Assembly: GCA_947650285.1 (NCBI GenBank) | Contig: CANTFL010000090.1 | Location: 496,001-560,000, forward strand | Reading direction: 5' to 3' | Source of the DNA: Hyaloperonospora brassicae | Lineage: Eukaryota; Oomycota; Peronosporomycetes; Peronosporales; Peronosporaceae | Length of the DNA: 64,000 nucleotides | Shown: positions 9,434-33,693 of the stretch, in pieces | Layout of the letters: each line of letters starts with the position of its first letter | Position numbering within the stretch: the first letter of the stretch is position 1 | Translations under genes and position numbers: made by a program | Notes under the pieces: model-generated | Seen by the model: the letters and a program-made list of their open reading frames with translations, nothing else | Told to the model about the DNA's origin: nothing | Database searches by the model: none

Positions 9434-9875
9434 TGTAACGGGGTAGCCCGTTACATGAGATTGTCATTTAAAACAATCTGACAATGAAGAATATTACGTC
9501 GAGCATTTTTTTAACAATATCACAAGACATGGTGATATTGTTGAGATGACCGAAGGGTCTACTTTTTGGCTGATATCGTGATGATATCAACCCACCATTC
9601 GCTGCTAGACGCGCGCAATGGGTGGTGAGTAGACGTCATCATACATACAGTTATATTAGTATAATTAAGTCAGGACAACAGAGATACAAGGAGTTATAGG
9701 ACTTAATTATATTAATATAGTTTACTTTTACCAACAGACTAGTCTAAATACTTAGTCTCCTTTCCTTCCGCTGTGCTTTCCCTAAACACCTAGCAGGGCA
9801 CTGTCGACCACTGTCGTCAGTGGAAGTATACTCTGTACTGGTCAACCAGTACGTAGTCAAAAGTGCCCCGTTACA
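9434..9875 (+). repeat. 5' LTR of GypA-1
   Basis: Begins TGTAACGGGG and ends CCCCGTTACA. It contains several dyads: 9435-9454 (8-bp stem), 9513-9542 (11-bp stem, 8-nt loop), 9590-9626 (10-bp stem, 17-nt loop) and 9835-9852 (8-bp stem). The core GCGCGCAATGGGTGGTGA at about 9611-9628 recurs in the GypC LTR. Confidence 0.95.
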
Positions 9876-9877
9876 CC

Positions 9878-9893
9878 TGGCAGCACTTTGTAG
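9878..9893 (+). promoter_or_regulatory. Primer binding site of GypA-1
   Basis: TGGCAGCACTTTGTAG starts two bases after the LTR, the expected place for tRNA-primed minus-strand synthesis. GypC has TGGCGGCACTTCGTCG at the same place (56560-56575). I cannot name the tRNA. Confidence 0.75.
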
Positions 9894-9931
9894 TCCGTCC
9901 AAGGAACACAACTTCATCGCCCAACAGGAAC

Positions 9932-11047
9932 ATGTTGGACGATGTAGACGGCGACAGCTTTCACGGAACCCGTGAAAGCTACTCCTATTTGAGTGACATC
10001 GAATGGAGTACGATAGAACGAATGAGTTCGACCGTTGGCGAGGAAGCCATGTGGGCCATGCTATCCTCAAGGGATAGGGACCAGCAACGTGCCGTCATTA
10101 GAAAGTTCTTGCAACGAGAACTTGATGAGTCGCGAGCTCAGGTGACCTTGTTACAACAACAAGATCACCAGCGGACCGAAGCACTGAGACAACAACAGTC
10201 TCAGTCCGCAGAGTCGACGCGTGAGCGTCGACGGGAGTCTCTAAAACTAGAGGTCTTCAAGTATCAGGGAGTCGAGGAAGACTCCCTGTTGAGGTGGTTC
10301 GTCGAGCTGGACGATGCCATCGATGCTCGTCGCATCAACGATGAGCGAATGCAAGTCTCATTCACTCAGTCTGGCCTGGCAGGAGAAGCCAGAGCTTGGG
10401 ACCTGAACCTCAAGTTGCACGACCCACACGTGTTTGGGTCGTTGAGAATCTTCAAGACCTTGCTCAGTGAGACGTTCGAGCCGCCAAGAGCATAGTTCAG
10501 AACACTATCTGAACTCCTCGGAATCAAACAGGGTAAGCGTAAGGTTCACGCTTACGCTCAGCACGTACGCTACCTTGCAAGCTGCATGGTAGTGAACCCT
10601 GTGAGTGAGTTTGTTTTGATCACAATCTTCATTCAAGGGCTTTCAGACGGTCCCGTTAGGTACCACCTGTTCCGCGGAGAGCTAAAGACGCTCTCAGAGG
10701 CAATCTTCGCAGCGGAGAAAGAAAATTATAGCGTGAGACAGTCTCACGCTACGTTGACCCCGCATCGTCCACAAAGACAATTAGCCGTCGGAGGTTCAGA
10801 ACCAATGGATCTCTGCAATGTCGAGGTCGAGAAACCTCGCCCTGCGAGTGACAAGCGAATGGTGAGATGCCGTCTCTGTCATAAACTGGGACACTATGCA
10901 TATGGTTGCAGTATCCCCCGCTCAGGACCTCGCGGTGCTGATCGCAGTGTTCACCTACCAGCAAGAAGAACTGGAGGGAGAGGGTCCGTTGCTGTTGCGA
11001 AGTCGCGACAGCGTGGTGGAACATCAAAAAAAGGTCGGGATCAGTAG
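9932..11047 (+). pseudogene. gag: GypA-1 gag (capsid plus CCHC nucleocapsid), one internal stop
   Basis: ATG at 9932 opens a frame that runs to TAG at 11045-11047, interrupted only by TAG at 10493-10495. GypC has GAG at the matching codon, so this stop is a point mutation. The N-terminal half is charged and Gln-rich with heptad-like character (ESRAQVTLLQQQ region), followed by a retrotransposon capsid-like helical part. Near the end is a zinc knuckle, CRLCHKLGHYAYGC (Cys-x2-Cys-x4-His-x4-Cys), and then a basic Arg/Gly/Lys tail typical of RNA-binding nucleocapsid. Gag would form the particle and package element RNA. The stop codon lies five codons after a slippery A-run, so pol is probably made by -1 frameshifting. 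Confidence 0.85.
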
Positions 11048-11069
11048 GGTCGGAGCGCCCTACTGATCC
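11026..11069 (+). promoter_or_regulatory. Programmed -1 ribosomal frameshift signal between gag and pol (GypA-1)
   Basis: In gag phase the heptamer is A AAA AAA (11026-11032). A 5-nt spacer follows, then a perfect 12-bp stem: GGATCAGTAGGG (11038-11049) pairs with CCCTACTGATCC (11058-11069) around an 8-nt loop. Pol lies in the -1 frame. GypC keeps the same layout with heptamer A AAA AAT and one G-U pair in the stem. This is a textbook arrangement, not tested here. Confidence 0.8.
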
Positions 11070-12093
11070 ATCAACATCAAGAGAATTCGCAAATCTCCTG
11101 AAGAAGGTGGCTCCCGACACACAATTTCTGTGTATCTCTGCACCTGGTGATGGGGTGTCTCTCATCACCTTGAAGTTAGTAGTGACAAAAGACTTGTCAC
11201 TTCGCGCCCTAGATGACTGTGGGGCGTCGAACAATTTTGTTCGTCGCCAGTCGCCAGAGGCAGGAAGTTTTAACTCCGTGGAGCGGGAGATCCCTCCAAC
11301 GAAGATGACGGTGCGCCTAGCGACAGGTGCATCGATCACTGTGAAGAAACGTGTAGTCGGAATCCACTACACGTTAAAAGGCGAACAGTACGATGATTAT
11401 TTCATCGTGCTTGACCTAGATGACAAGTTCGACGTCATCTTAGGGTTGCCTTGGCTCAAGAGATACGAGCCAAGGGTGAGTTGGCAGTATCGATCGTTTA
11501 CGATACCTGCTATTTGTTCCTCAGATAATCACCTGAAGAATATCTTGGAACGCCCACACTCACATGGGTGTACTACGAGCGAGTGCGATGGCCTCATTTG
11601 TGGTACGGTCATTAGCACGACTGTACAAGGACTAAGTGTAGATGATCACTACATCGTGGAGAAAGCTCACCCAGATCCTGTGGGAGTGATTTCCCAGGAG
11701 GTAATCGAGACACTGAATGTCTTGGTTAATGATGGATCAAGCGTAGGCGCTTACACGCTTGATCTGGTTGCGCCTCCGAAGTTAACTTCGGAGATAATTC
11801 AACTGCCGACGCCAGAACCGAAACGGTTCTTACGTGATCTGCGTAGTGGCAAAGTCAAGCAGATCTGTGTACTCGTCGCGGAGGACGAGTACGTTACCGA
11901 TATTCGATCGGCAACGGTGTTTACTGAGACCGAGAGGGTTCTCAGCAGTTCATCGATGGACGAAAGCGTCATCGATGAGAAGACTCGGATTGAGAGATAT
12001 GAATCTCAATCCTGGAAGTCGCTTCAGTCAAATCCTTTGTTTGAGGATTTGATCGAATTCAAGGATTTGTTCCCTGAATCCGTGCCTTGCTAG
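11033..12093 (+). CDS. GypA-1 aspartic protease region of pol
   Basis: This is the -1 frame relative to gag, open from before the slippery site to a TAG at 12091-12093. Near the start it has LRALDDCGASNNFVRR, the retropepsin active-site motif (Asp-Cys-Gly-Ala-Ser), and about 70 residues on the hydrophobic FDVILGLPWLKRY block that follows the flap in Gypsy proteases. A linker of about 200 residues leads towards RT. The protease would cleave Gag-Pol after assembly. The terminal TAG, just before LHKDKGTRHEIEL of the RT region, is present at the same place in GypA-2 and GypC. It is therefore either an old shared mutation (from CAG) or a readthrough codon. Confidence 0.85.
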
Positions 12094-13471
12094 TTGCATA
12101 AGGACAAAGGCACTCGACACGAGATCGAGCTCAAACCGGGCTCGAAATATTGTGTCATGAAGCAGTGGCCACTGCCTCGTGAACAAGTACTAGCGATCGA
12201 CAAGTTCTTTGCCGATCGCTTAGCAGCGGGCCATGTGAGGGAATCGACTTCCCCTCACAGCTCTCCGACCTTCTGTGTGCGAAAGGCCACAGGAGGATGG
12301 CGGATAGTGCACGCGTTCAACAAGTTGAATGCTGCAACGGTACCGGCTCAGACGCCGATACCGAGAAAGGACGTAATCATAGATGGTATGTCAAAGACAA
12401 ACCATTTTCTCGTCCATGGATCTGATGGATGGGTTCTATCAGATCCTCATGCGTGAACGGGACATCCAGTCCACAGCAGTAAGCACCCCCAGAGGGATGC
12501 TGTGGGAGTGGATAGTGATGCCACAGGGGCTGAGCAATGCCCCTGCAACATTCAACAGATGTGTCACAAATCTGTTGAGACCGGTGCGAGACCTCGCACC
12601 GAGTTACTTCGACGATGTGTTCATCCATAGTCAGGCTATGGACGGAAGGACGGACGTTGAAATTCATAGAACTCACGTTCGTCAAGTCCTTTAACTTATG
12701 CGCAAGCAAAAGTTTTATGCCAACCTCAAGAAGCGTACATTCGCGGCTAGCGAAATTTTACTTCTTGGGTGCATCGTGCGTGAACACGGCGTCCGCCCTG
12801 ATCCCGAAAAGATCAAGGTGATCACCAACTGGCCAGTGCCAGTCGATGTCAAGGGACTAAGGAAGTTCCTTGGCTTAGCGGCGTACTTGCATAAGTACTC
12901 GCGCGACTACGCCGAGATGACTGTTCATCTTTCTTGCTTGCTCAAGAAAAATGTTAAGTGGTTATGGAACGCTGAGTGCCAGCGTTCCTTTGAGGGTATA
13001 AAGCAAATCTCGATGTAATCGCCGATCTTGGCGATTGCAGATCAGGACAGACCATTTCATGTGGTCGGTGACGCCAGCGATTTTGCTATCGGCTGTGCGT
13101 TAATGCAGTTCGATGCAGATGGCGTGGAGAGCGTCATATGTTATCAGTCGCGTCAGCTGCAAGCAGCTGAGCGTAATTACCCAGTGCATGACAAGGAACT
13201 CATTGCCATGAAGTATGCACTGGTTAAGTTCCGGGTCTATCTCTTGGGAGATAGACCGTTTGTTGTCTATACGGACCATGCGTCATTACGCACGGCCGTA
13301 AACAGCCTACACCTCTCGCAAAGAATGGCGAGGTGGCTTTCTTTCTTCGTGGAATACGACTTCTCCGTGGAGTAGAAACCAGGACGACTCAATGTCGTCG
13401 CTGATGCGCTTTCGCGCCGGCCCGATTTCGAGCCGATCGCACAATCCAAAAGTGAGGATAAACCCACTGTT
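12094..13471 (+). pseudogene. GypA-1 reverse transcriptase and RNase H, broken
   Basis: Reading on from the protease: the RT fingers (WPLPREQVLAIDKFFADRL, then SPTFCVRKATGGWRIVHAFN), a 1-nt insertion near 12394 relative to GypC, motif A with Asp (FSSMDLMDGFYQI), motif B (MPQGLSNAPATF) and the catalytic YFDD box at about 12606. Stops follow at 12692 (TAA) and 13016 (TAA), where GypC has CAA. RNase H starts near 13040 with VVGDASDFAIGCALMQF and includes YPVHDKELIAMKYAL and YTDHASLRT. A TAG at 13373-13375 is shared with GypC. Together these domains would copy element RNA into DNA. This copy cannot do so by itself. Confidence 0.9.
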
Positions 13472-15260
13472 GTGACACTGACAGCCAGTGTTCCGTCGTC
13501 AAGCTTAATTGACGACGTACGAAACGCATACGCAGAAGATAAGGATCTTCTGCGATTAATGGATCATCTGGTGAATCCATCCAGTAAATCCATGAGGGAT
13601 TTACCAGCTTTGTACCGATCCTCATCGGATAGGTACACAACGCGTAACGGACTGTTATATTATACAGCCGTTGACGGTGACACGCCTCGTGTCGTCGTAC
13701 CCGCTCATCATGATCTGCGTTTACGCATCATGTATGAGTGTCACGATGCCCCAACAGGCGGCCATCGTGGTAGAGAAAATACTTACCTCACGGTTAGTCG
13801 TGACTTTACTGGCCACGCCAGTATCAGTTTGTCCGCAAGTACATACGTGCTTGCGAGGTCTGTCAACGGGTGAAGCCTAGTCCTTTATCCCGTGCGCCAT
13901 CGCAGCCTCTGCCTGTTCCGACAGAGTGCTGGCAGTCCGTTTCAATGGACTTCGTCTTCGGTTTTCCCGAAGACGCTCACAAGAATAATGGTATTCTTGT
14001 GTATGTGGATCGTTTAAGCAAGATGGTACATCTTGCTGCAGTCCCAGAATCGATCAACGCCCACGGCTGTGCGCGTGTCTTTCTAGACACGGTCTTTAGA
14101 CCCCACGGGTTACCCCATGAACTCGTATCCGACCGGGACCCTCGGTTCACGGCGGCGTTTTGGCAATCCGTGTTCCGCACATCGGAAAACAGTTGAAGAT
14201 GAAAACCTCTGATCATCCTGAAACAGATGGTCAGACTGAACGGGCTAACCGTGTCCTCGAATAAATTCTTTTTGGATACGTCCACTCCTTTTCACATTGG
14301 AGTGAGTTCTTGCCGATGGTTGAGTTTGCCTTCAACAACTCCGTGCATGCGTCCACAACGCATACACCGTTCCAAGTGAATGGCTAACGCCACCCACGTA
14401 TTCCCGCCCTCATACAGAGTTACTCTGAGTTAAGATGGGGGAGGGACTCGCTCGAGCAAAAACCGTTTGGCTCTTGCTCATCACGTATCACCGCTCACGT
14501 CGATACGTTTGATGCCGATGTCGACAACGTCGACATCGAGGAAATCGAGCTTAGCAGTAGCGATGAGGCTGCTGCTACATCAGACAACGATGACGATGCT
14601 GGTATATTCAGCATCGTCAATGATTATTCCAGCGAGGAAGAAGACACCCTCGTTGAAGAAGAGAACAATCTCTTAGCAGTGCGTACGAAGCGCACTGTAA
14701 TTAGAAAAAAAGAGTCAGCAGAGAACTTTCTGCTGACTCGAGAAGCGGTAGTCCGTTTTGTTCAGGACGCCATCGCAAATGCGGTGGACCGCCAGAAACG
14801 GAACGCAGACAAGAATGGAAGAGCAAATGTTCTTTTATTTAAAGTGAACGACCTAGTACTACTGTCTACGGTAAACTTACCTGGACATGCAGTCACTAGT
14901 GTCGGCAGTAGTAAACTACTACCGAAGTACATTGGTCCCTTTCGTGTGTTGCATCGCAAGGGCAATGCATACACACTTCAATTGCCACGTAAGATGCGCA
15001 CGCATCCTACGTTGTACGTGGGGCGACTCAGGCCGTACTGTCAGTACGAGCCTTCTTCTTCCGATGAAGATAGCCCCCACGTTCAAGAACATCCATCAAG
15101 TTCTTGCGTTCGCGCTCCAGACGATCCGTCTGGTCGCGCAGATACGATACCTCGGAACTTAACCGAGATATCTCCCCGCGGGCTGTTGCCAGCTTGCCAA
15201 AGAAGGAGCGGACGTCGCTCTCCAACCGGTCCGTCTGGTCGCGTAAATAAGAGAACTTAG
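13472..15260 (+). pseudogene. GypA-1 integrase with acidic insert and GPF module, broken
   Basis: The zinc-binding N-terminus (YECHDAPTGGHRG, later ACEVCQRVK) is split by a frameshift near 13.8 kb. The catalytic core then reads SMDFVFGFPED, LVSDRDPRFTAAFW and, after a second break near 14.19 kb, DGQTERANRVLE. These supply the D, D and E of the DDE triad, followed by TAA. After about 14.48 kb comes an acidic Asp/Glu/Ser-rich stretch, and then (14679-15260) a C-terminal domain with SSKLLPKYIGPFRVL, the GPY/F module of Gypsy integrases, ending in PTLYVGRLRPYCQYE. The frame stops at 15258. Integrase would insert the cDNA into the host genome. Confidence 0.88.
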
Positions 15261-15558
15261 AACGCAACTGAGAGATCTCTCCGCAAGATGTCGCCAGCTC
15301 GCCAAAGAAGGAGCGGACGTCGCGCTCGACCTGCAGCTGTGCGACCGAATACTCATCGCGGTCCTTCGCACGGTTCACCTCGTTATCTTTGCGGTACTTT
15401 CGCCAATAGTCAGTCAGAGCATAACGTCTGTCCATCTCGTTCTCTAAATCATCGCGCAATTCAATAATTGCGCGTTCCATCTCGTAAGGGTCGAGATGGT
15501 GAGCAGAATTATCTGGAGGAGGTCTTTCCTCCTCCGCCACATCCTTTGGTGGACTCAC
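15028..15558 (-). CDS. Antisense ORF B of GypA-1: coiled-coil protein
   Basis: An open frame of 176 codons lies on the strand opposite pol, between the integrase end and the chromodomain. From the GTG at 15558 it reads PDNSAHHLDPYEMERAIIEL and continues into a long charged heptad region. An internal duplication of about 34 residues is visible, beginning VRSFFGELATSCGEISQL and VRSFFGKLATARGEISRL. The first ATG is at about 15481. The same protein is encoded antisense in GypC (62095-62447), recognisable despite three stops (HHLDPYEM, RDRRY, ERDVRS, ELATS, LLERERK), and intact in GypA-2. I know no family for it. Conservation across diverged elements argues that it is, or recently was, a real gene, perhaps an exon of antisense ORF A. 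Transcription would have to start in or near the 3' LTR. Confidence 0.6.
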   Translation of the reverse strand: MSPPKDVAEEERPPPDNSAHHLDPYEMERAIIELRDDLENEMDRRYALTDYWRKYRKDNEVNRAKDRDEYSVAQLQVERDVRSFFGELATSCGEISQLRSKFSYLRDQTDRLESDVRSFFGKLATARGEISRLSSEVSYLRDQTDRLERERKNLMDVLERGGYLHRKKKARTDSTA

Positions 15559-15776
15559 ACGGTGGTCAACGCTTTCTAGTGGAGCTTATCTTGAACCACA
15601 GTGACGATTCAGGATCAAGGACGAGTTACCTCGTCCAGTGGAGGGGGTATCCGCCCTCGAGGAACAGCTGGGAGTCCTGCTCCCAGCTGATGATGGATGT
15701 TGAAGGTCTCGTTCACCAATATGACGAGACTCATCCGATTGGTCCGAGAAACCCATCGGTAAATACACTCTTTTAG
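15468..15776 (+). CDS. Chromodomain ORF of GypA-1
   Basis: Within this frame, from about 15560, the sequence GGQRFLVELILNHSDDSGSR continues as TSYLVQWRGYPPSRNSWES, the layout of a chromodomain (beta strand, then YLVQWRGY and the NSWES helix start). In chromoviruses such a domain sits at the integrase C-terminus and steers insertion to marked chromatin. Here it is cut off from integrase by about 300 bp that are closed in the sense frame but open on the antisense strand. GypC has the same domain (62466-62642) with one stop. Joining to integrase would need splicing or another expression route; I cannot show which. Confidence 0.75.
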   Translation: MRVPSRKGRDGEQNYLEEVFPPPPHPLVDSHGGQRFLVELILNHSDDSGSRTSYLVQWRGYPPSRNSWESCSQLMMDVEGLVHQYDETHPIGPRNPSVNTLF

Positions 15777-16735
15777 CGTTTGTAGACGGATTGCAAGTTT
15801 GCAATAGCGTCCCGCATCTCAGCCGAGATGTGCGCCCTTCCCCAGGGCGAACTTAGGAAATACACGTCCCTATGTGCACGCTGCGAGTTGTCAACACAGC
15901 TCGGCTAAGGATCTCCCGAAGTGAGGCAAGGAATGTCCGACTCACTTGAAAAACGATGCAACCGGTACCTGGCACCGGTTGGCGTTCGCTTTTCGAACCT
16001 GAGGCGTGTCGCCTCAAGTTTTTGGAGCCATCCTTCTCGTCCAAAATTGTTGACATTTTGGACGAACGCATTCCACGCAGCCAAAAGCGAGGCTTTGTCA
16101 CGCTTTTAGTTACCATTATACCATCGATGCCTAAGGAAGGTATCGAGATAGAAGTCTTCTTCAGCGCGAAAGTTGCTCGCGCTGGGATTCAAGCCGTGAA
16201 GCTTAGTGGCATCGAATAAGGGTATTCGATGGTGTTGGCTTGTCTCGTGAGACAAGCTATTGATGAGCCGTCTGGGCAAACGCCACGGCTTCAGCTCATC
16301 ACGCTTCAATGTGGTACCTGTTTTGGTACCACGGCTTTCAGAATGACGATGGCTCTCGCCATCGTCATTGCGCTCGTGCGGGGAAGCACGAGTTGATGCT
16401 GGTGAGGCATAGTATTCCTCACAATAAACTTCATCATCACTGCAGAACAGACTATGCTGCAACTCACGAGTCCGTTCGTTCGACAGTGCACTTGACGAGC
16501 GATGATGCACCGCTGGTTATCGGGATGCCTCTGGAAGATGCGCGAGTCATGCACGTCTGACTCGTCAGAAATGATGACCTCATTTACAAGGTCATCATGT
16601 GCACGTGGTGCGATAACGCGTGCGTCTGCAGAACCTTCTGCTGCAGACGGAGGCCAAGCAGCAGATGACAAAGCTTCTGCCGCAGAGGCTGGTACAGCAG
16701 CAGGCTGTGTGTTCTTCGAATCACCTCGCATATAT
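15773..16735 (-). pseudogene. Antisense ORF A of GypA-1: unknown conserved protein, interrupted
   Basis: The antisense strand, starting at an ATG near 16735 just inside the 3' LTR, encodes an Ala-rich N-terminus (MRGDSKN...), an acidic patch, a basic patch (KRDELKPWRLPRRLINSL) and a conserved core: IPLF-x3-K-x-x-GL-x2-SA, then E-x-DFYLDTFLRHRWY, AWNAFVQN and GARYRLHR. Breaks are a frameshift near 16.49 kb and stops after the core. GypC encodes the same core on its antisense strand: 20 of 37 aligned residues are identical around IPLF to RHRW. The sense-strand frame over the same stretch is less similar. I do not recognise a family. Its position suggests expression from antisense promoter activity of the 3' LTR. 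Confidence 0.6.
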
Positions 16736-16856
16736 ATGTTAACTATGCAAGGCAAGGTCAGGAGTGAGTGGGTCTGACCAAACAAGTGCTCCCTGTACCT
16801 CTGGTATACAACGGGTGGCCACCAAGTTTTCGATAGTCACACGGTTACTGTCAGAT

Positions 16857-16869
16857 AAGGAAGGGGTGA
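16857..16869 (+). promoter_or_regulatory. Polypurine tract of GypA-1
   Basis: The purine-rich run AAGGAAGGGGTGA directly abuts the 3' LTR, as expected for the plus-strand primer. The same place holds GAGGGAGGAGTGA in GypC and AAGGTGGGGGTGA in GypA-2. Confidence 0.75.
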
Positions 16870-17312
16870 TGTCACGGGGTAGCCCGTTACATGAGATTGT
16901 CATTTAAAACAATCTGACAATGAAGAATATTACGTCGAGCATTTTTTTAACAATATCACAAGACATGGTGATATTGTTTTGATGACCGAAGGGTCTACTT
17001 TTTGGCTGATATCGTGATGATATCAACCCACCATTCGCTGCTAGACGCGCGCAATGGGTGGTGAGTAGACGTCATCATACATACAGTTATATTAGTATAA
17101 TTAAGTCAGGACAACAGAGATACAAGGAGTTATAGGACTTAATTATATTAATATAGTTTACTTTTACCAACAGACTAGTCTAAATACTTAGTCTCCTTTC
17201 CTTCCGCTGTGTTTTATCTAAAACACCTAGCAGGGCACTGTCGACCACTGTCGTCAGTGGAAGTATACTCCGTACTGGTCAACCAGTACGTAGTCAACAG
17301 TGCCCCGTTACA
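16870..17312 (+). repeat. 3' LTR of GypA-1
   Basis: 443 bp, close copy of 9434-9875. It starts TGTCACGGGG rather than TGTAACGGGG and carries a few substitutions, including a short block near 17.2 kb (GTTTTATCTAAAAC) that is shared with the 5' LTR of GypA-2. Confidence 0.95.
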
Positions 17313-19603: not shown

Positions 19604-19997
19604 TGTAACGGAGTAGACCCTTGCGTGAACTTAACGCAAGGGTTCGGGTGTCCGACAGATGTACACGAGGCGAACGAGGAAGCTTAGGATAAGGAGAATT
19701 TTAAAAACTGTTTAATTAATGTGATTAAGTCTTTTTGCTACTGTCTCTTTGTTTAACTTAACTTAATTATGCTAATATAACCGAGTGTATGGTGACTTCT
19801 CGTCACCACTCATTGCGCGAGTCCTGCGGCGATTGGTGGGTTGATCTCATCACGATATCAACCAATGAGCAGACCCTTTGTTCGCTTCACCAATATCACC
19901 ATTATCGGTGAGATTGTTCAAAGAATATTCACTTAATATTCTGTGTTGTCACTTTTTTTTGAAGTGACACTTCCAAGTAACGGGCTGCCCCTATAAA
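19604..19997 (-). repeat. 3' LTR of GypA-2 (divergent GypB type)
   Basis: 394 bp. In element orientation it begins TTTATAGGGGCAGCCCGTTAC, related to the GypA start, and ends in a CCCTTGCG...CGCAAGGG hairpin and CTCCGTTACA. That end resembles the GypC LTR more than GypA. A purine tract abuts it at 19998-20010. Confidence 0.85.
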
Positions 19998-20131
19998 TCA
20001 CCCCCACCTTAAGTGATAGTCACCGTGTGACTATCGATAATTATGGCGACCATTCTTTGGGCGTCATTGGGACAGGGAGCACTTGTTGGGTCAGTTCCGT
20101 GTATATCTCAACCTGACCTCGCATAGTTAAC

Positions 20132-21097
20132 ATGTCTATGCGGGGTGACTCAAGGCACACAGAGTCTGTGCCTGTGCCAGATTCTGCGGCAGACGATTCT
20201 TCGTCTGCTGCTCGTTCTTCACAGGCAGCAAGAGGTGCTGCAGGTGCAAGCGGTACAGCACCGCGGGCGCATGATAACCCCGACTTTGAGGTCATCTACT
20301 CTGGCGAGTAAGACGTGTCTGACTCGGGGAATGCTGCAGAGGCGTCTCGCTCACCGGCGATGTCTCAGTGTTCGCCAAAGCCACTGTCGAACGAACGGAC
20401 TCGTGAGTTGCAGCATAGTCTGTTCTGCAGTGATGATGAAGTTTATTGTGAGGAATACTATGCCTCACCAGCATCAACTCGTGCTTCCCCGCACGAGCGC
20501 AATGACGATGGCGAGAGCCATCGTCATTCTGAAAGCCGTGGTACCAAAACAGGTACCACATTGAAGCGTGATGAGCTGAAGGCGTGGCGTTTGCCCAGAC
20601 GGCTCATCAATAGCTTGTCTCACGAGACAAGCCAACACCATCGAATACCCTTATTCGGTGCCACTAAGCTTCACGGCTTGACTCCCAGCGCGAGCAACTT
20701 TCGCGCTGAAGAAGACTTCTATCTCGATACCTTCCTTAGGCATCGATGGTATAATGGTAACTAAAAGCGTGACAAAGCCTCGCTTTTGGCTGCGTGGAAT
20801 GCGTTCGTCCAAAATGTCAACAATTTTGGACGAGAAGGATGGCTCCAAAAACTTGAGGCGACACGCCTCAGGTTCGAAAAGCGAACGCCAACCGGTGCCA
20901 GGTACCGGTTGCATCGTTTTTCAAGTGAGTCGGACATTCCTTGCCTCACTTCGGGAGATCCTTAGCCGAGTTGTGTTGACAACTCGCAGCGTGCACATAG
21001 GGACGTGTATTTCCTAAGTTCGCCCTGGGGAAGGGCGCACATCTCGGCTGAGATGCGGGACGCTATTGCAAACTTGCAATCCGTCTACAAACGCTAA
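20132..21097 (+). pseudogene. Antisense ORF A of GypA-2, in one frame with three stops
   Basis: From ATG 20132 (or 20138) a single frame runs to TAA at 21095-21097, broken only by stops at 20309, 20762 and near 20964. Segments: Ser/Ala-rich N-terminus, acidic patch, then the conserved core found in GypA-1 and GypC (RIPLFGATKLHGL, EEDFYLDTFLRHRWY, AWNAFVQNVNNFGREGW, GARYRLHRF), ending IANLQSVYKR. The intact length would be about 320 residues. The first 0.25 kb is GypB-type sequence and still keeps the frame. The ORF is on the + strand because the element is inverted. Function unknown. Confidence 0.6.
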
Positions 21098-21402
21098 AAG
21101 AGTGTATTTACCGATGGGTTTCTCGGACCAATCGGATGAGTCTCGTCATATTGGTGAACGAGACCTTCAACATCCATCATCAGCTGGGAGCAGGACTCCC
21201 AGCTGTTCCTCGAGGGCGGATACCCCCTCCACTGGACGAGGTAACTCGTCCTTGATCCTGAATCGTCACTGTGGTTCAAGATAAGCTCCACTAGAAAGCG
21301 TTGACCACCGTGTGAGTCCACCAAAGGATGTGGCGGAGGAGGAAAGACCTCCTCCAGATAATTCTGCTCACCATCTCGACCCTTACGAGATGGAACGCGC
21401 AA
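21094..21402 (-). CDS. Chromodomain ORF of GypA-2
   Basis: Identical in protein to the GypA-1 chromodomain ORF (LVQWRGYPPSRNSWES core) and likewise separated from integrase by the antisense coiled-coil ORF. Confidence 0.75.
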   Translation of the reverse strand: MRVPSRKGRDGEQNYLEEVFPPPPHPLVDSHGGQRFLVELILNHSDDSGSRTSYLVQWRGYPPSRNSWESCSQLMMDVEGLVHQYDETHPIGPRNPSVNTLF

Positions 21403-21842
21403 TTATTGAATTGCGCGATGATTTAGAGAACGAGATGGACAGACGTTACGCTCTGACTGACTCTTGGCGAAAGTACCGCAAAGATAACGAGGTGAACCGT
21501 GCGAAGGACCGCGATGAGTATTCGGTCGCACAGCTGCAGGTCGAGCGCGACGTCCGCTCCTTCTTTGGCGAGCTGGCGACATCTTGCGGAGAGATCTCTC
21601 AGTTGCGTTCTAAGTTCTCTTATTTACGCGACCAGACGGACCGGTTGGAGAGCGACGTCCGCTCCTTCTTTGGCAAGATGGCAACAGCCCGCGGGGAGAT
21701 ATCTCGGTTAAGTTCCGAGGTATCGTATCTGCGCGACCAGACGGATCGTCTGGAGCGCGAACGCAAGAACTTGATGGATGTTCTTGAACGTGGGGGCTAT
21801 CTTCATCGGAAGAAGAAGGCTCGTACTGACAGTACGGCCTGA
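21312..21842 (+). CDS. Antisense ORF B of GypA-2: coiled-coil protein, intact
   Basis: 176 codons, same protein as at 15028-15558 with only Tyr-to-Ser and Leu-to-Met type changes. It keeps the two copies of the VRSFFG...EIS repeat and a Lys/Arg-rich end (YLHRKKKART). It lies between chromodomain and integrase on the strand opposite pol. Unknown family. Confidence 0.6.
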   Translation: MSPPKDVAEEERPPPDNSAHHLDPYEMERAIIELRDDLENEMDRRYALTDSWRKYRKDNEVNRAKDRDEYSVAQLQVERDVRSFFGELATSCGEISQLRSKFSYLRDQTDRLESDVRSFFGKMATARGEISRLSSEVSYLRDQTDRLERERKNLMDVLERGGYLHRKKKARTDSTA

Positions 21843-23398
21843 GTCGCCCCACGTACAACGTAGGATGCGTGCGCATCTTACGTGGCAATTGAAGTGTGTA
21901 TGCATTGCCCTTGCGATGCAACACACGAAAGGGACCAATGTACTTCGGTAGTAGTTTACTACTGCCGACACTAGTGACTGCATGTCCAGGTAAGTTTACC
22001 GTAGACAGTAGTACTAGGTCGTTCACTTTAAATAAAAGAACATTTGCTCTTCCATTCTTGTCTGCGTTCCGTTTCTGGCGGTCCACCGCATTTGCGATGG
22101 CGTCCTGAACAAAACGGACTACCGCTTCTCGAGTCAGCAGAAAGTTCTCTGCTGACTCTTTTTTTCTAATTACAGTGCGCTTCGTGCGCACTGCTAAGAG
22201 ATTGTTCTCTTCTTCAACGAGGGTGTCTTCTTCCTCGCTGGAATAATCATTGACGATGCTGAATATACCAGCATCGTCATCGTTGTCTGATGTAGCAGCA
22301 GCTTCATCGCTACTGCTAAGCTCGATTTCCTCGATGTCGACGTTGTCGACATCGGCATCAAACGTATCGACGTGAGCGGTGATACGTGATGAGCAAGAGC
22401 CAAACGGTTTTTGCTCGAGCGAGTCCCTCCCCCATCTTAACTCAGAGTAACTCTGTATGAGGGCGGGAATACGTGGGTGGCGTTAGCCATTCACTTGGAA
22501 CGGTGTATGCGTTGTGGACGCATGCACGGAGTTGTTGAAGGCAAACTCAACCATCGGCAAGAACTCACTCCAATGTGAAAAGGAGTGGACGTATCCAAAA
22601 AGAATTTATTCGAGGACACGGTTAGCCCGTTCAGTCTGACCATCTGTTTCAGGATGATCAGAGGTTTTCATCTTCAACTGTTTTCCTATGTGCGGAACAC
22701 GGATTGCCAAAACGCCGCCGTGAACCGAGGGTCCCGGTCGGATACGAGTTCATGGGGTAACCCGTGGGGTCTAAAGACCGTGTCTAGAAAGACACGCGCA
22801 CAGCCGTGGGCGTTGATCGATTCTGGGACTGCAGCAAGATGTACCATCTTGCTTAAACGATCCACATACACAAGAATACCATTATTCTTGTGAGCGTCTT
22901 CGGGAAAACCGAAGACGAAGTCCATTGAAACGGACTGCCAGCACTCTGTCGGAACAGGCAGAGGCTGCGATGGCGCACGGGATAAAGGACTAGGCTTCAC
23001 CCGTTGACAGACCTCGCAAGCACGTATGTACTTGCGGACAAACTGATACTGGCGTGGCCAGTAAAGTAACGACTAACCGTGAGGTAAGTATTTTCTCTAC
23101 CACGATGGCCGCCTGTTGGGGCATCGTGACACTCATACATGATGCGTAAACGCAGATCATGATGAGCGGGTACGACGACACGAGGCGTGTCACCGTCAAC
23201 GGCTGTATAATATAACAGTCCGTTACGCGTTGTGTACCTATCCGATGAGGATCGGTACAAAGCTGGTAAATCCCTCATGGATTTACTGGATGGATTCACC
23301 AGATGATCCATTAATCGCAGAAGATCCTTATCTTCTGCGTATGCGTTTCGTACGTCGTCAATTAAGCTTGACGACGGAACACTGGCTGTCAGTGTCAC
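21610..23398 (-). pseudogene. GypA-2 integrase, broken
   Basis: Mirror of GypA-1 13472-15260 with the same breaks. The zinc-binding start, DDE core residues, acidic stretch and KYIGPFRVL module are recognisable. One extra difference is YFTGHA for DFTGHA in the N-terminal part. Confidence 0.88.
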
Positions 23399-24776
23399 AA
23401 CAGTGGGTTTATCCTCACTTTTGGATTGTGCGATCGGCTCGAAATCGGGCCGGCGCGAAAGCGCATCAGCGACGACATTGAGTCGTCCTGGTTTCTACTC
23501 CACGGAGAAGTCGTATTCCACGAAGAAAGAAAGCCACCTCGCCATTCTTTGCGAGAGGTGTAGGCTGTTTACGGCCGTGCGTAATGACGCATGGTCCGTA
23601 TAGACAACAAACGGTCTATCTCCCAAGAGATAGACCCGGAACTTAACCAGTGCATACTTCATGGCAATGAGTTCCTTGTCATGCACTGGGTAATTACGCT
23701 CAGCTGCTTGCAGCTGACGCGACTGATAACATATGACGCTCTCCACGCCATCTGCATCGAACTGCATTAACGCACAGCCGATAGCAAAATCGCTGGCGTC
23801 ACCGACCACATGAAATGGTCTGTCCTGATCTGCAATCGCCAAGATCGGCGATTACATCGAGATTTGCTTTATACCCTCAAAGGAACGCTGGCACTCAGCG
23901 TTCCATAACCACTTAACATTTTTCTTGAGCAAGCAAGAAAGATGAACAGTCATCTCGGCGTAGTCGCGCGAGTACTTATGCAAGTACGCCGCTAAGCCAA
24001 GGAACTTCCTTAGTCCCTTGACATCGACTGGCACTGGCCAGTTGGTGATCACCTTGATCTTTTCGGGATCAGGGCGGACGCCGTGTTCACGCACGATGCA
24101 CCCAAGAAGTAAAATTTCGCTAGCCGCGAATGTACGCTTCTTGAGGTTGGCATAAAACTTTTGCTTGCGCATAAGTTAAAGGACTTGACGAACGTGAGTT
24201 CTATGAATTTCAACGTCCGTCCTTCCGTCCATAGCCTGACTATGGATGAACACATCGTCGAAGTAACTCGGTGCGAGGTCTCGCACCGGTCTCAACAGAT
24301 TTGTGACACATCTGTTGAATGTTGCAGGGGCATTGCTCAGCCCCTGTGGCATCACTATCCACTCCCACAGCATCCCTCTGGGGGTGCTTACTGCTGTGGA
24401 CTGGATGTCCCGTTCACGCATGAGGATCTGATAGAACCCATCCATCAGATCCATGGACGAGAAAATGGTTTGTCTTTGACATACCATCTATGATTACGTC
24501 CTTTCTCGGTATCGGCGTCTGAGCCGGTACCGTTGCAGCATTCAACTTGTTGAACGCGTGCACTATCCGCCATCCTCCTGTGGCCTTTCGCACACAGAAG
24601 GTCGGAGAGCTGTGAGGGGAAGTCGATTCCCTCACATGGCCCGCTGCTAAGCGATCGGCAAAGAACTTGTCGATCGCTAGTACTTGTTCACGAGGCAGTG
24701 GCCACTGCTTCATGACACAATATTTCGAGCCCGGTTTGAGCTCGATCTCGTGTCGAGTGCCTTTGTCCTTATGCAA
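23399..24776 (-). pseudogene. GypA-2 RT and RNase H, broken
   Basis: Same domains and the same lesions as GypA-1: the 1-nt insertion in RT, TAA codons and the TAG after RNase H. The YFDD box and VVGDASDFAIG are intact. Sharing of all lesions shows that both arms descend from one already dead copy. Confidence 0.9.
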
Positions 24777-25837
24777 CTAGCAAGGCACGGATTCAGGGAA
24801 CAAATCCTTGAATTCGATCAAATCCTCAAAAAAAGGATTTGCCTGAAGCGACTTCCAGGATTGAGATTCATATCTCTCAATCCGAGTCTTCTCATCGATG
24901 ACGCTTTCGTCCATCGATGAACTGCTGAGAACCCTCTCGGTCTCAGTAAACACCGTTGCCGATCGAATATCGGTAACGTACTCGTCCTCCGCGACGAGTA
25001 CACAGATCTGCTTGACTTTGCCACTACGCAGATCACGTAAGAACCGTTTCGGTTCTGGCGTCGGCAGTTGAATTATCTCCGAAGTTAACTTCGGAGGAGC
25101 AACCAGATCAAGCGTGTAAGCGCCTACGCTTGATCCATCATTAACCAAGACATTCAGTGTCTCGATTACCTCCTGGGAAATCACTCCCACAGGATCTGGG
25201 TGAGCTTTCTCCACGATGTAGTGATCATCTACACTTAGTCCTTGTACAGTCGTGCTAACGACCGTACCACAAATGAGGCCATCGCACTCGCTCGTAGTAC
25301 ACCCATGTGAGTGTGGGCGTTCCAAGATATTCTTCAGGTGATTATCTGAGGAACAAATAGCAGGTATCGTAAACGATCGATACTGCCAACTCACCCTTGG
25401 CTTGTATCTCTTGAGCCAAGGCAACCCTAAGATGACGTCGAACTTGTCATCTAGGTCAAGCACGATGAAATAATCATCGTACTGTTCGCCTTTTAACGTG
25501 TAGTGGATTCCGACTACACGTTTCTTCACAGTGATCGATGCACCTGTCGCTAGGCGCACCGTCATCTTCGTTGGAGGGATCTCCCGCTCCACGGAGTTAA
25601 AACTTCCTACCTCTGGCGACTGGCGACGAACAAAATTGTTCGACGCCCCACAGTCATCTAGGGCGCGAAGTGACAAGTCTTTTGTCACTACTAACTTCAA
25701 GGTGATGAGAGACACCCCATCACCAGGTGCAGAGATACACAGAAATTGTGTGTCGGGAGCCACCTTCTTCAGGAGATTTGCGAATTCTCTTGATGTTGAT
25801 GGATCAGTAGGGCGCTCCGACCCTACTGATCCCGACC
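24777..25837 (-). CDS. GypA-2 aspartic protease region of pol
   Basis: Mirror of GypA-1 11033-12093; the active-site DDCGASNNF and FDVILGLPWL blocks are intact. Replacements include Ala-to-Val, Glu-to-Lys, Ile-to-Val and a Leu-to-Phe change near the end. It ends in the same TAG before the RT region. Confidence 0.85.
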
Positions 25838-25844
25838 TTTTTTT
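25801..25844 (-). promoter_or_regulatory. -1 frameshift signal of GypA-2
   Basis: Mirror of 11026-11069: A-run heptamer, 5-nt spacer, 12-bp stem. Confidence 0.8.
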
Positions 25845-26938
25845 GATGTTCCACCACGCTGTCGCGACTTCGCAACAGCAACGGACCCTCTCCCTCCAGT
25901 TCTTCTTGCTGGTAGGTGAACACTGCGATCAGCACCGCGAGGTCCTGAGCGGGGGATACTGCAACCATATGCATAGTGTCCCAGTTTATGACAGAGACGG
26001 CATCTCACCATTCGCTTGTCACTCGCAGGGCGAGGTTTCTCGACCTCGACATTGCAGAGATCCATTGGTTCTGAACCTCCGACGGCTAATTGTCTTTGTG
26101 GACGATGCGGGGTCAACGTAGCGTGAGACTGTCTCACGCTATAATTTTCTTTCTCCGCTGCGAAGATTGCCTCTGAGAGCGTCTTTAGCTCTCCGCGGAA
26201 CAGGTGGTACCTAACGGGACCGTCTGAAAGCCCTTGAATGAAGATTGTGATCAAAACAAACTCACTCACAGGGTTCACTACCATGCAGCTTGCAAGGTAG
26301 CGTACGTGCTGAGCGTAAGCGTGAACCTTACGCTTACCCTGTTTGATTCCGAGGAGTTCAGATAGTGTTCTGAACTATGCTCTTGGCGGCTCGAACGTCT
26401 CACTGAGCAAGGTCTTGAAGATTCTCAACGACCCAAACACGTGTGGGTCGTGCAACTTGAGGTTCAGGTCCCAAGCTCTGGCTTCTCCTGCCAGGCCAGA
26501 CTGAGTGAATGAGACTTGCATTCGCTCATCGTTGATGCGACGAGCATCGATGGCATCGTCCAGCTCGACGAACCACCTCAACAGGGAGTCTTCCTCGACT
26601 CCCTGATACTTGAAGACCTCTAGTTTTAGAGACTCCCGTCGACGCTCACGCGTCGACTCTGCGGACTGAGACTGTTGTTGTCTCAGTGCTTCGGTCCGCT
26701 GGTGATCTTGTTGTTGTAACAAGGTCACCTGAGCTCGCGACTCATCAAGTTCTCGTTGCAAGAACTTTCTAATGACGGCACGTTGCTGGTCCCTATCCCT
26801 TGAGGATAGCATGGCCCACATGGCTTCCTCGCCAACGGTCGAACTCATTCGTTCTATCGTACTCCATTCGATGTCACTCAAATAGGAGTAGCTTTCACGG
26901 GTTCCGTGAAAGCTGTCGCCGTCTACATCGTCCAACAT
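25823..26938 (-). pseudogene. gag: GypA-2 gag, one internal stop
   Basis: Mirror of GypA-1 gag from its ATG (26938) to the terminal TAG, with the same internal TAG (26375-26377) and the intact CCHC knuckle. Confidence 0.85.
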
Positions 26939-26994
26939 GTTCCTGTTGGGCGACGAAGTTGTGGTCCTTGGACGGACTACAAAGTGCTGCCAGG

Positions 26995-27437
26995 TGTAAC
27001 GGGGCACTTTTGACTACGTACTGGTTGACCAGTACAGAGTATACTTCCACTGACGACAGTGGTCGACAGTGCCCTGCTAGTTGTTTTAGATAAAACACAG
27101 CGGAAGGAAAGGAGACTAAGTATTTAGACTAGTCTCTTGGTAAAAGTAAACTATATTAATATAATTAAGTCCTATAACTCCTTGTATCTCTGTTGTCCTG
27201 ACTTAATTATACTAATATAACTGTATGTATGATGACGTCTACTCACCACCCATTGCGCGCGTCTAGCAGCGAATGGTGGGTTGATATCATCACGATATCA
27301 GCCAAAAAGTAGACCCTTCGGTCATCTCAACAATATCACCATGTCTTGTGATATTGTTAAAAAAATGCTCGACGTAATATTCTTCATTGTCAGATTGTTT
27401 TAAATGACAATCTCATGTAACGGGCTACCCCGTTACA
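26995..27437 (-). repeat. 5' LTR of GypA-2
   Basis: 443 bp, partner of 9434-9875. A cluster of differences near 27.08-27.13 kb matches the 3' LTR of GypA-1 instead, a likely short gene-conversion tract. The PBS (TGGCAGCACTTTGTAG, minus strand) lies at 26977-26992. Confidence 0.93.
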
Positions 27438-29474: not shown

Positions 29475-29633
29475 CTCTTCAATTTTATCGGTTTTGAAGA
29501 GGAACAAATTTAAGATACACCTGGCCAGCCACGGCTCTCAGCGCACGACGGACGCCGAGTCTCGTCCGTGTCTTCCCCCCGACGCGGGGGGGGGGGTCTG
29601 CCGGTGGCTGCCGCCGAGCCCCTACTCACGGGG

Positions 29634-32600: not shown

Positions 32601-33662
32601 GGGACCTCTCAGCTTGCGTCCGACGCACCCGAAGGGCCTCAAACTCCTACGGATTCTGTGCCTCCCTCGGGCGAATCTGGATCGCAACTGCGTCTCTATG
32701 ACTCCCAGTTCGCTAAGCGGTCCAATGTAGCGGATGTCCAGTCTGTCGGCGGTGCGTCTCACGCTTTATTGTTGGACGGTAGCCCGTCATCTGTTGCGTA
32801 TCCGCCTCCACCAGTGGAGACACGGAAACGGGCACACGCCTCCTGTGCTGATGATCAACCCACCGAGGACGCCAGCCTGCGAAAAAAGGCGCTAGCGCCA
32901 CCCATGTCGGCTGTCGGACATAGCTACGCGCGCGGTCAGCTCGACTTTGAGAACTTGGACGGCCGTATTGATCGTGACGACTGGCCGGGTCTTTGGTTAT
33001 CTTTAATCCCGGAATGGCCACCTTCAGCATTGACGGCTTGTCCGCGTGTCGACAGCACGACTGCGGAGTGGGTGCTAACAGCTCGACAGGATCCTATCGC
33101 ACTCCTTCATCATCTCCGGCGATTTGTTTTCCCCTGCGAGCTGCTCGCAAGTCTGGACGTTCAAGTTCTGGTCCACTTGGCAGCCCGTTGGCGACAGGAT
33201 AGCCTCCTATCTGGGCTGCACTCATTTCGTACAAAGGTGGCGTCAGCGCCTCTACAAGATTGGCTTGGTGGCTGGATTGATCGCGCAACTTCTACAGCCG
33301 CTCGGTCAGGCCTATCTCCGCTTATTGATAACGGGGACGACTGGCACAAATTACGTGAGCTGAAGTACGCTGCGGATGATATTTTAAAACTATGCGATCC
33401 GTGCCGCAAGGTTCGGTATAGTCAGCACCTGATATGCGCTCTTCTCTTCGAGCACGAGATAGGGGTGCTAACTGAGGGGGTGGCGGTGCCGTCATCACCT
33501 GATCTACAAATTCGACGGCATCTGCAGCTTCTAAAGCAAAATACCGCCTACAAGTCTGCCTTCTACCAAGCTGACCGTCAATACGTGGACTGGAGGGCAG
33601 TCGAGAGTTTTTTCTACTGTGCTCTGACGCCTGCAGCAGAGACGGCGCTCGTCTGTTACTAA
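29634..33662 (+). CDS. LINE ORF1 protein with CCHC zinc knuckle and OTU-like cysteine protease domain
   Basis: 1342 residues from ATG 29634 (the frame is open from a GTG at 29568). The N-terminus is Pro/Ser/Thr-rich. Around residues 505-518 is a zinc knuckle (CLQCGNLGHPASRC), preceded by a region like other LINE ORF1 proteins, which bind element RNA. Around 775-965 lies a segment with the plan of an OTU deubiquitinase: TGNCLAMAVAQAL with candidate nucleophile Cys782, WGGRDILGLAANFLSRDIYV at 877-896, and LVLCLSGRHYSALL with candidate His962. OTU enzymes remove ubiquitin; why a LINE would carry one is unknown, though protein-processing or host-defence roles are possible. ORF1 of most LINEs is several-fold shorter. 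The domain call rests on motif order, not on a search. Confidence 0.8.
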   Translation: METDMGPGPRPTSAPSSPATSFELPGVGDSTSPRLLSPSVNTPGAIDGVGTCSGGSDTPEVSAAAAATTDTASTSVAPFAMFRALIAEMKGSTGTCHMDVWKTTLCELFAVEYSKLPIRVEALPPHKKRFPQLKDVEASSLLRLFEQVFISSSGTFKEWQRIARSLGNGVLTTKWAFTELIRKLSSQHKWAKAPILNHWASVVRHGTASTASTAASTTTEYEDFMFDPSRFPPGDIEHLTQLCADRSSAGRKVQLREGTDHEWKIIVGIAEGSVACRRMPDFLRAVLDSKERLRLYSTVQAQVEGHLVLHLAHTRGIPVGRQTTRAITESILESAEIAKVNLQEVHKLLGLTKTINYDRSTKSIHFFFFSRSAAMGLQDVRIPFQGRVYMLTNEHHPERGSVWNRQQGPSGRAGLLRAEYSIILHNLTRFNEIGRVAAYLKSKIPTEFDFEDMDTNCPTSRTSTSWLVTFRLSGCPLFLQGIVRILWFGTSIILRHPDVGRRLQCLQCGNLGHPASRCQFTDDQLRGVGGIEVTEGDLQVVEDLAKPFGSAAEIRTMADRRLQVQRSADAAAQAAVTPSEVPVSPPLVFDLPNVGPSVRSQSIYTPARPSSSDSVPAPKPPLDQPWITKPVRGSNNPWTSRQPVRSPTQLSSGRFSVLSSTGRSDNPSTVSATEPLVTNLTDADGPQGVQIPRPPLRLSTQEQTRRKQALSRGKAQTHSSPLLLTLKSQARDTCLKLLSRMHDAPTHAISLAPRPIDVPTDLKALIPLLGLQEAITPVTGNCLAMAVAQALADAALDGPNDKLERLTAIIKKGVLYTGLLHLEEHYAHDLRVDALLKVQRGWASLTKRESANQYRWYLHDYAATPSARDSDIAETEWGGRDILGLAANFLSRDIYVLHEEAANMVSQVCHKYSPSVETRNNKAVETVRETSLSLSTCADAIIAAKLEPGTGLPLVLCLSGRHYSALLHSDRGAGLSDLSDSPLIHAKLTGTSQLASDAPEGPQTPTDSVPPSGESGSQLRLYDSQFAKRSNVADVQSVGGASHALLLDGSPSSVAYPPPPVETRKRAHASCADDQPTEDASLRKKALAPPMSAVGHSYARGQLDFENLDGRIDRDDWPGLWLSLIPEWPPSALTACPRVDSTTAEWVLTARQDPIALLHHLRRFVFPCELLASLDVQVLVHLAARWRQDSLLSGLHSFRTKVASAPLQDWLGGWIDRATSTAARSGLSPLIDNGDDWHKLRELKYAADDILKLCDPCRKVRYSQHLICALLFEHEIGVLTEGVAVPSSPDLQIRRHLQLLKQNTAYKSAFYQADRQYVDWRAVESFFYCALTPAAETALVCY

Positions 33663-33693
33663 AGGCACTTTACGCGATTCGCTAGCAACGCAT

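Follow-up and report, generated by a model that had tools for sequence, protein, structure and literature searches.

Why is a retrotransposon filled with short perfect hairpins, in its LTRs as well as in its genes? The question is raised by GypA-1, a decayed Ty3/Gypsy LTR retrotransposon at 9434..17312 on the plus strand of the window (the whole 64,000-nucleotide stretch of Hyaloperonospora brassicae DNA analyzed here), in which an earlier note had listed 30 such stems. All 30 proved exact in position, stem and loop size, and five of them (9956, 10730, 11349, 12028, and 12583) allow one or two further pairs. An exhaustive scan of 9434-17312 for perfect stems of at least 8 bp with loops of 0 to 15 nt found 56; therefore, the earlier reading held about half of them, and the excess is real and was understated. 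Dinucleotide-preserving shuffles of the same interval (n = 10) gave a mean of 1.8 stems and a maximum of 5. The minus-strand element GypA-2 (19715..27437) has 55 stems against a shuffle mean of 1.7, counted in 19701-27447, and the related decayed plus-strand copy GypC (56401..64000, reaching the window end, its 5′ start approximate) has 52 against 1.5. The plus-strand element that the note had called a LINE (29568..38244; two long ORFs, RVT_1 match at 35368-36141) is hairpin-poor, with 3 stems in 8677 bp against a shuffle mean of 1.5, and codon shuffling of its two ORFs gives 0.93 and 0.82 stems where 1 and 2 are present. Likewise, 38.5-56 kb of the window contains 3 stems per 17.5 kb (shuffles, 4.3) and 1-7 kb a single stem (shuffles, 1.8). 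Thus, the claimed contrast between the Gypsy elements and both the LINE and the remaining window is borne out, as is the claim that LTR, gag, pol, and antisense region are all hairpin-dense; the entire 8-kb element is affected.

The LTRs of GypA-1 (5′, 9434..9875; 3′, 16870..17312; both plus strand) are about 98% alike and have TG...CA ends (TGTAACGGGG...CCCCGTTACA). The flanks of this copy, the only one at which a target-site duplication was sought, differ (GTAGC versus GTGGA). Minus-strand ORF pieces at 15028..16836 are the remnant of an antisense ORF region, which is hairpin-dense too. GypA-2 sits within an inverted repeat whose arms are 99 to 100% alike; since this repeat extends past the element ends, GypA-2 was probably duplicated from GypA-1 rather than separately inserted. 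The domain order of GypA-1 was taken from L001, a better-preserved copy of the related family "B", against which the GypA-1 gag-pol carries eight frameshifting indels. GypA, B, and C form one clade of Ty3/Gypsy retrotransposons.

L001, whose LTRs are 99.7% alike, contains 118 perfect stems per 7,985 bp, against about 2 by shuffle. Codon-preserving shuffles (60 per ORF) do not reproduce this density, leaving 0.8 to 1.6 stems where 16 to 64 were found: 16 in gag against 0.80, 64 in pol against 1.63, and 24 in the antisense ORF against 0.78. The dinucleotide and codon shuffles together rule out chance or base composition as the source. Pfam matches of L001 (Retrotrans_gag, Ty3_capsid, RVP_2, RVT_1, RT_RNaseH, Integrase_H2C2, rve, and SH3_Tf2-1) follow the Ty3/Gypsy order of gag and then PR-RT-RNaseH-INT. 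The antisense ORF is open over 462 aa and is the counterpart of the GypA-1 remnant; it has 25 homologues and matched no Pfam family, and a third-position excess is present in L015, L017, and L020 and absent from the near-identical L003. An Rfam search of L001 gave no family at its gathering score, and viral contigs searched with the RT piece gave no relatives. Among ten other elements sampled, three have a lesser stem excess and seven none, and the LINE has none. Controls were the remaining window, a few element flanks, and the loci without excess (L023-L025, L027-L030, L043, L044, and the LINE; n = 10), and all copy and family comparisons lie within one genome.

One hairpin has a probable individual role. 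At the gag-pol junction (11026..11069, plus strand), an A-run heptamer within 11026-11033 precedes the hairpin at 11038-11069, which probably belongs to a −1 frameshift signal. The heptamer lies 16 nt ahead of the same hairpin core in all eight sequences bearing it (L001, L020, L021, L022, L025, L026, GypA-1, and GypC). In L001, where the frames were worked out, pol is in the −1 frame and the gag stop falls inside the left arm of the hairpin, so that heptamer, short spacer, stable hairpin, and downstream −1 ORF are all present.

The hairpins are short and of uniform stability, recurring about once per 70 bases along the element. In L001, 103 of 118 stems are of 8 to 10 bp and 114 do not exceed 11 bp, 77 have loops of 4 to 8 nt, and extension becomes less frequent at 10 to 11 bp. 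With RNA parameters, the mean stem ΔG is −11.5 kcal/mol in L001 and −11.6 in L021, despite the GC-richer stems of the latter, and its SD is 2.83 against 3.90 in random arms of equal lengths. Stem length and GC correlate at −0.29 in L001; this correlation is absent in GypA-1, GypC, and L021, and is not significant in L001 gag and pol alone after correction for local GC (p = 0.10). Stem GC in L001 equals background GC, which would be unexpected if selection simply maximized stability. In 150-nt windows (n = 53), the mean z score of the minimum free energy is −5.62 on one strand of L001 and −5.76 on the other (difference 0.14, SE 0.21), against −0.04 and −0.05 in the LINE; thus, the two strands fold equally well. 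G-U pairs make up 5.4% of pairs in predicted folds of the hairpin element and 12.9% in the LINE. A codon-phase bias of stems is seen in L001 pol and is absent from the remaining ORFs. The stem excess is concentrated at short loops and is small past 60 nt, which speaks against long-range structure. Regular spacing is not seen either, as the gaps look random (CV 1.08), and loops, examined for composition, vary freely among copies, which makes a common loop motif unlikely.

Are these hairpins maintained? With stems defined in the diverged GypA-1 and GypC, variants were read in 19 B copies; a variant in at least two copies (shared) served as a proxy for change before insertion, ignoring gene conversion and mosaicism. 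Shared variants are about threefold rarer at stem sites (36 of 1556 columns) than at other sites (308 of 4629), whereas loops have 37 in 453; the corresponding rates are 2.3% in stems, 8.2% in loops, 7.7% in flanks, and 6.7% elsewhere. The depletion holds at third positions (odds ratio 0.30), at fourfold-degenerate sites (0.37, p = 0.018), and in noncoding and antisense sequence (0.33). Private variants are only slightly rarer in stems (odds ratio 0.79, p = 0.02), at 8.1% against 10.8% in loops, 10.8% in flanks, and 9.8% elsewhere. Against a baseline of unpaired element columns (444 shared to 762 private), changes that break stems are rarely shared (58 to 245; odds ratio 0.41, p = 2e-9), and changes that make pairs are over-represented among shared variants (25 to 20; odds ratio 2.15, p = 0.018). 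Furthermore, Watson-Crick double changes between families number 25 and 30, against about 4 and 5 expected. Hairpin positions are mostly unshared between sister families, yet shared positions exceed expectation. Since the depletion concerns shared variants in stems and leaves loops, flanks, and private variants close to normal, these data indicate that natural selection keeps the GypA/B/C hairpins paired. We put at roughly 70% the probability that selection in the active GypA/B/C lineage has maintained the folding of its nucleic acid into about 110 independent short perfect hairpins. Of the first cause proposed earlier, selection for structured RNA, the selection on pairing therefore stands, through stem depletion and compensated double changes, and sense RNA is one of several candidate targets. 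Packaging, translation control, and small-RNA production, the roles named there, are candidates too, and the one hairpin linked to any of them is that of the probable −1 frameshift signal.

Which molecule is selected bears on the two strongest alternatives. With RNA parameters, G.T mutants would be tolerated at 0.678 and A.C mutants at 0.145, a ratio of about 4.7 expected under RNA-level selection, and with DNA parameters the gap is smaller (0.328 and 0.141). The observed G.T:A.C counts are 24:21 in fixed near-stems (with different cut-offs, 31:33 and 11:13), 15:24 in shared breaks, 6:6 in a further measure, and 29:12 at outgroup-defined stems. The measures disagree: three show no G.T preference and one leans to sense RNA. 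That the genomic RNA of the virus-like particle is what is selected, dense hairpins compacting it or aiding its packaging by Gag, is rather unlikely, though it would suit hairpins throughout the 8-kb element, LTRs included, a CCHC-type Gag (whose zinc-knuckle match in L001 lies under the curated cut-off), the 29:12 count, and the A-richer, C-poorer sense-strand loops of gag and pol, a purely descriptive composition. Against it stand the freely varying loops, which leave no sequence-specific packaging motif, the remaining wobble measures and the strand-symmetric folding energy, which give sense RNA no preference, and the sister family L025, which keeps long open frames with 3 stems in 5 kb (0.9 shuffled). 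Selection on DNA hairpins, whether formed by the cDNA while single-stranded or by the double-stranded element as cruciforms, is no better placed. Strand symmetry of folding, near-equality of G.T and A.C in most measures, and the smaller mutant difference under DNA parameters agree with it; however, private variants, found in single insertions, are nearly as frequent in stems as elsewhere, so that little preserves the hairpins after integration, the 29:12 count leans to RNA, and we know of no requirement of reverse transcription for such hairpins.

The second cause proposed earlier, snap-back template switching in reverse transcription, would perfect near-palindromes with no selection at all. 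As the main cause it is disfavored and, in our judgment, improbable. Perfect Watson-Crick stems, inconsistent wobble preference, background composition, short-loop excess, and the likeness of every region agree with it, and 12 Watson-Crick double changes that each occur in a single copy (six in L020, the most divergent copy, three in L002, two in L011, one in L008) exceed our expectation for independent private hits. In contrast, at 40 of the 43 loci where a stem was gained or extended, one base separates it from the nearest stemless copy, with the left arm changed at 20 loci and the right arm at 20, although the loci overlap partly and choosing the nearest copy favors small steps. At the other three, two or more bases differ and both arms are affected every time; no gain showed a multi-base change restricted to a single arm. 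The split of stem differences, mostly decay, between the arms is close to the chance expectation (73 (0,2) versus 67 (1,1); 13 (0,3) versus 27 (1,2)). Conversion predicts paired double changes about as numerous as neutral substitutions, and only 6 shared doubles stand against 58 one-sided breaks; loops free to vary beside stems that are not fit selection better. The mechanism is described for DNA replication (PMC8794818); the RNA hairpins that template-switch mutations make and preserve there resemble ours in short perfect stems and compensated changes and differ in that our gains are mostly single-base and arm-symmetric, multi-base arm-to-arm events not being dominant. Template switching may have contributed without being the main cause.

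Just as improbable is neutral build-up through protection of paired bases from mutation in a single-stranded intermediate. This, too, would lower the number of shared stem variants without lowering that of private ones, and would give strand symmetry and weak GC preference. However, the stem depletion is as strong for transversions (shared to private, 19 to 104 in stems and 164 to 342 in unpaired sequence) as for transitions (39 to 141 in stems and 280 to 420 in unpaired sequence), which simple deamination protection would not produce; pair-making changes are enriched among shared variants; and extension drops at 10 to 11 bp, where protection ought to continue. A lower reverse-transcription mutation rate at paired sites could nevertheless mimic part of the constraint. 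Mobile palindromic insertions are rejected, as the hairpins shared with relatives, compared in codon alignments, differ from one another by base substitutions and contain no inserted unit.

What, then, would selection on pairing serve? From the free variation of loops and the equal folding of both strands, we infer that being locally closed matters rather than sequence recognition, in an array that covers LTRs, gag, pol, and antisense gene alike. Perhaps the hairpins hold the element's nucleic acids closed against silencing. As the likeliest function, we tentatively suggest that they shield the sense RNA, and probably the antisense RNA, from guide RNAs and from sense-antisense annealing; stems so rarely longer than 11 bp would be poor substrates for dsRNA enzymes. 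A fuller version, possible though doubtful, is a sequence-independent armor of both strands, more than 100 perfect hairpins near −11 kcal/mol that arose one point change at a time within coding DNA and were selected as a cis-acting anti-silencing device, in which a transcript of either polarity would stay closed to guide RNAs and annealing without becoming a dicing substrate. Two reports on oomycetes describe sense and antisense small RNAs covering two Gypsy classes of Phytophthora infestans, and inverted repeats as strong small-RNA sources, one example being 714 nt, unlike the 8 to 14 bp of the stems here (PMC3522703, PMC3804510).

The elements combine traits of known systems. Beyond the LTRs, the order of gag, protease, RT, RNase H, and integrase, and the −1 junction that they share with Ty3/Gypsy elements using −1 frameshifting, they have an extra hairpin array, which the Gypsy relative L025 almost lacks, and an antisense ORF without a Pfam family (L021-L026 stood outside the ORF search). 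Pervasive selected folding is known in RNA viruses, as the genome-scale ordered RNA structure (GORS) of positive-strand RNA viruses. As in GORS, the folding-energy excess runs throughout the coding genome, beyond a few regulatory elements and far under shuffled controls; unlike GORS, the carrier is a retrotransposon, and the structure consists of perfect local hairpins in series, with few wobbles in the predicted folds and strand-symmetric energy. Titles and abstract openings in the open-licence literature mention no retrotransposon that bears perfect hairpins at intervals of about 70 bases and preserves their density despite turnover of positions between families.

Because this genome contains many copies, preserved as well as decayed, selection before insertion can be told apart from decay after it, and the question thereby becomes testable by counting. 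If the constraint is confirmed, a second code would lie over gag, pol, and the antisense gene simultaneously, and these elements would offer a natural experiment on what local structure gives a mobile element. Scans of such genomes for small-RNA-precursor hairpins could be swamped by elements of the GypA/B/C type. If the armor reading is true, the lineage would possess an anti-silencing strategy encoded by its whole nucleotide sequence, and not by a gene.

The earlier note had listed 30 short hairpins in GypA-1, a decayed Ty3/Gypsy LTR retrotransposon copy (window 9434-17312, forward strand), and a letter-by-letter test found 30/30 to be exact. Scanning all 64 kb of the window for perfect Watson-Crick stems (at least 8 bp, loop 0-15 nt) gave 179, and 56 of these fall within 9434-17312. 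The other 123 include 55 in GypA-2 (19715-27437, reverse strand) and 52 in GypC, a related decayed copy (56401-64000, forward strand). The LINE at 29568-38244 is hairpin-poor, as had been claimed (3 stems; shuffle mean 1.5), and the 38.5-56 kb and 1-7 kb stretches hold 3 and 1 stems (shuffle means 4.3 and 1.8). The hairpin density reported for GypA-1 is confirmed. GypA-2 belongs to a very large inverted duplication (7397-16533 and 20337-29474), whose arms are 99-100% alike over ~9 kb and lie 3.8 kb apart; this is either a recent event or an assembly artefact.

Searching with a 1-kb pol segment of GypA-1 turned up 2043 first-look candidates; 40 scored matches, at 93-100%, came from these, a count that takes in the window's own copies. 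Twenty places that were fetched proved to be ~8-kb elements, here called family B; having been chosen by similarity to GypA-1, they are no random sample. Among the gag protein matches listed, those with a named organism were all from the downy mildew Peronospora matthiolae; the best listed match, outside this named set, stands at 93%. Averaged over the 20 copies, gag and pol have 13.4 and 13.1 stems per kb, the 5′ and 3′ LTRs 15.8 and 13.7, and the antisense region 15.3. Outside the element it drops to 0-2 per kb (flanks of L001, L006, L008, L017, L018 and L020); several remaining flanks are hairpin-dense and hold parts of further copies. A better-preserved copy, L001, has LTRs 99.7% alike and open gag, pol and antisense frames. 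Its 7,985 bp hold 118 stems where 1.96 are expected, and 45 of these reach at least 10 bp (0.12 expected). Relative to L001, GypA-1 has 8 frameshifting indels and about half as many hairpins, as decay would give. The hairpin phenomenon is stronger elsewhere in the genome, and the copies in the window are worn examples of it. Divergence between GypA-1 and L001 is uneven over the whole element (22-42% by codon position in gag, 8-17% in pol), which suggests that GypA-1 is a mosaic formed by recombination between families. GypA-1 also carries a tandem duplication of ~105 bp (15110-15327, halves 80% alike), an insertion relative to L001.

The excess survives codon-preserving shuffling (60 shuffles per ORF). 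In L001, 16 stems were observed in gag against 0.80, 64 in pol against 1.63 and 24 in the antisense ORF against 0.78; corresponding values for the two LINE ORFs were 1 against 0.93 and 2 against 0.82. The excess is greatest at short loops, and tandem local hairpins are the main content of the predicted folds in six L001 windows. Mean folding z per 150-nt window (folding energy relative to shuffled controls) on the two strands was -5.62 and -5.76 in L001, -3.44 and -3.89 in GypA-1, -2.05 and -2.16 in L021, -0.76 and -1.05 in L022, and -0.04 and -0.05 in the LINE. L025, a Gypsy relative, has few perfect stems, yet its mean z is about -2 on both strands (-2.19 and -1.70).

Variation was read in 19 family B copies (L020 excluded) at stems that are perfect in the diverged GypA-1 or GypC. 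Variants shared by two or more copies mostly predate the insertions, an imperfect proxy for pre-insertion change; they occupy 36/1556 stem columns, 37/453 loop, 102/1326 flank and 308/4629 other columns. Their depletion in stems has an OR of 0.15 at first and second codon positions, 0.30 at third positions and 0.37 at fourfold sites; in noncoding or antisense sequence the OR is 0.33. Private variants, found in one copy only (126 stem, 49 loop, 143 flank and 453 other columns), are slightly fewer in stems (OR 0.79, p 0.02). Over all 20 copies, shared and private changes numbered 58 and 245 for stem breaks, 444 and 762 at unpaired element sites, and 25 and 20 for pair-making changes. Furthermore, 25 (GypA-1) and 30 (GypC) between-family pairs altered on both sides are still Watson-Crick, against ~4-5 expected. 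A pure copying process would instead leave many double changes shared between copies, and would alter several bases together within a single arm. However, 40/43 stem gains lie one base from the nearest stem-less copy, 20 on each arm, in a comparison that is biased toward small steps, has partly overlapping loci and leaves out 11 more whose outgroup already had the stem. Shared stem breaks also outnumber shared double changes (58 vs 6); 12 double changes private to one copy, half of them in L020, are in line with copying. In this one genome of one species, the stem variation is the pattern that purifying and compensatory selection on pairing would leave in a transposing lineage, relaxed after insertion.

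Hairpin energies are more even than in random arms of equal lengths (SD 2.83 vs 3.90). Longer stems are AT-richer in L001 (rho -0.29, p 0.0003), L015 (-0.29), L020 (-0.19) and L022 (-0.46), a trend absent in GypA-1, GypC and L021. With local GC subtracted, it holds over all L001 stems (p 0.003) and is not significant in L001 gag and pol alone (p 0.10). L001 and L021 have equal mean hairpin energy at unlike stem GC, and stem extension drops off at 10-11 bp. Therefore, the selected target looks like a stability plateau rather than maximal stability. In L001 pol, few stems lie in the phase that pairs wobble with wobble positions (9 vs 24 and 28), as expected were stems built under protein constraint; no such bias was seen in the smaller sets (gag, antisense ORF, L021, L022, L026).

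Among other elements of the genome, stems in 5 kb numbered 31 in L021 (shuffle 1.2), 18 in L022 (1.1) and 15 in L026 (1.3). No excess was found in L023, L024, L025 and L027-L030 (0-3 stems each), nor in L043 and L044 (1 and 0 in 2.1 kb). Since the hairpin-poor L025 is no farther from L001 than L021 (amino-acid identity 0.48 and 0.47), the trait is graded and labile within one clade. Few hairpin positions are common to related families: L001 has 2/58 in common with L021 and 3/57 with L022 (slid-control means 0.12 and 0.15), and L021 and L022 have 6/27. Several of these common hairpins show paired base changes.

One shared arrangement, at fixed spacing and conserved, is the gag-pol junction (window 11026-11069; L001 1745-1785). 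The GypA-1 hairpin at 11038-11069 has an A-rich slippery heptamer at a fixed distance upstream. The left arm of the L001 hairpin contains the gag TAG, and pol there lies in the -1 frame. AAAAAAC or GGGAAAC occurs in the same arrangement in L021, L022, L026 and L025, making the probable signal common to Gypsy families ~47% identical in pol. Hairpin and heptamer probably constitute a -1 frameshift signal, as predicted from sequence, and this is the only one of the 30 hairpins to which we can assign a putative function.

If selection acted on sense RNA, survival of G.T mutants would be expected to exceed that of A.C mutants ~4.7-fold. Counts by four measures were 24:21, 15:24, 6:6 and 29:12, the folding z-scores of the two strands are equal within error, and sense-strand loops are A-richer in gag and pol. 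We read the selected molecule as strand-symmetric or mixed and make no claim for sense RNA alone. An antisense ORF of 462 aa lies near the 3′ LTR (L001 6364-7749, reverse strand; GypA-1 counterpart at window 15028-16836, reverse strand). It matched no Pfam family and has 25 homologues among 8000 candidates scored, including ones in Peronospora and Hyaloperonospora. It is probably a gene, because its third codon positions are the most variable in 3/4 family B copies compared. In Phytophthora infestans, small RNAs of both polarities are reported to cover two Gypsy classes (PMC3522703). Any function of the hairpin array as a whole is putative; a role for antisense RNA is plausible, considering the ORF with its homologues, its third-position variation and the small RNAs of P. 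infestans.
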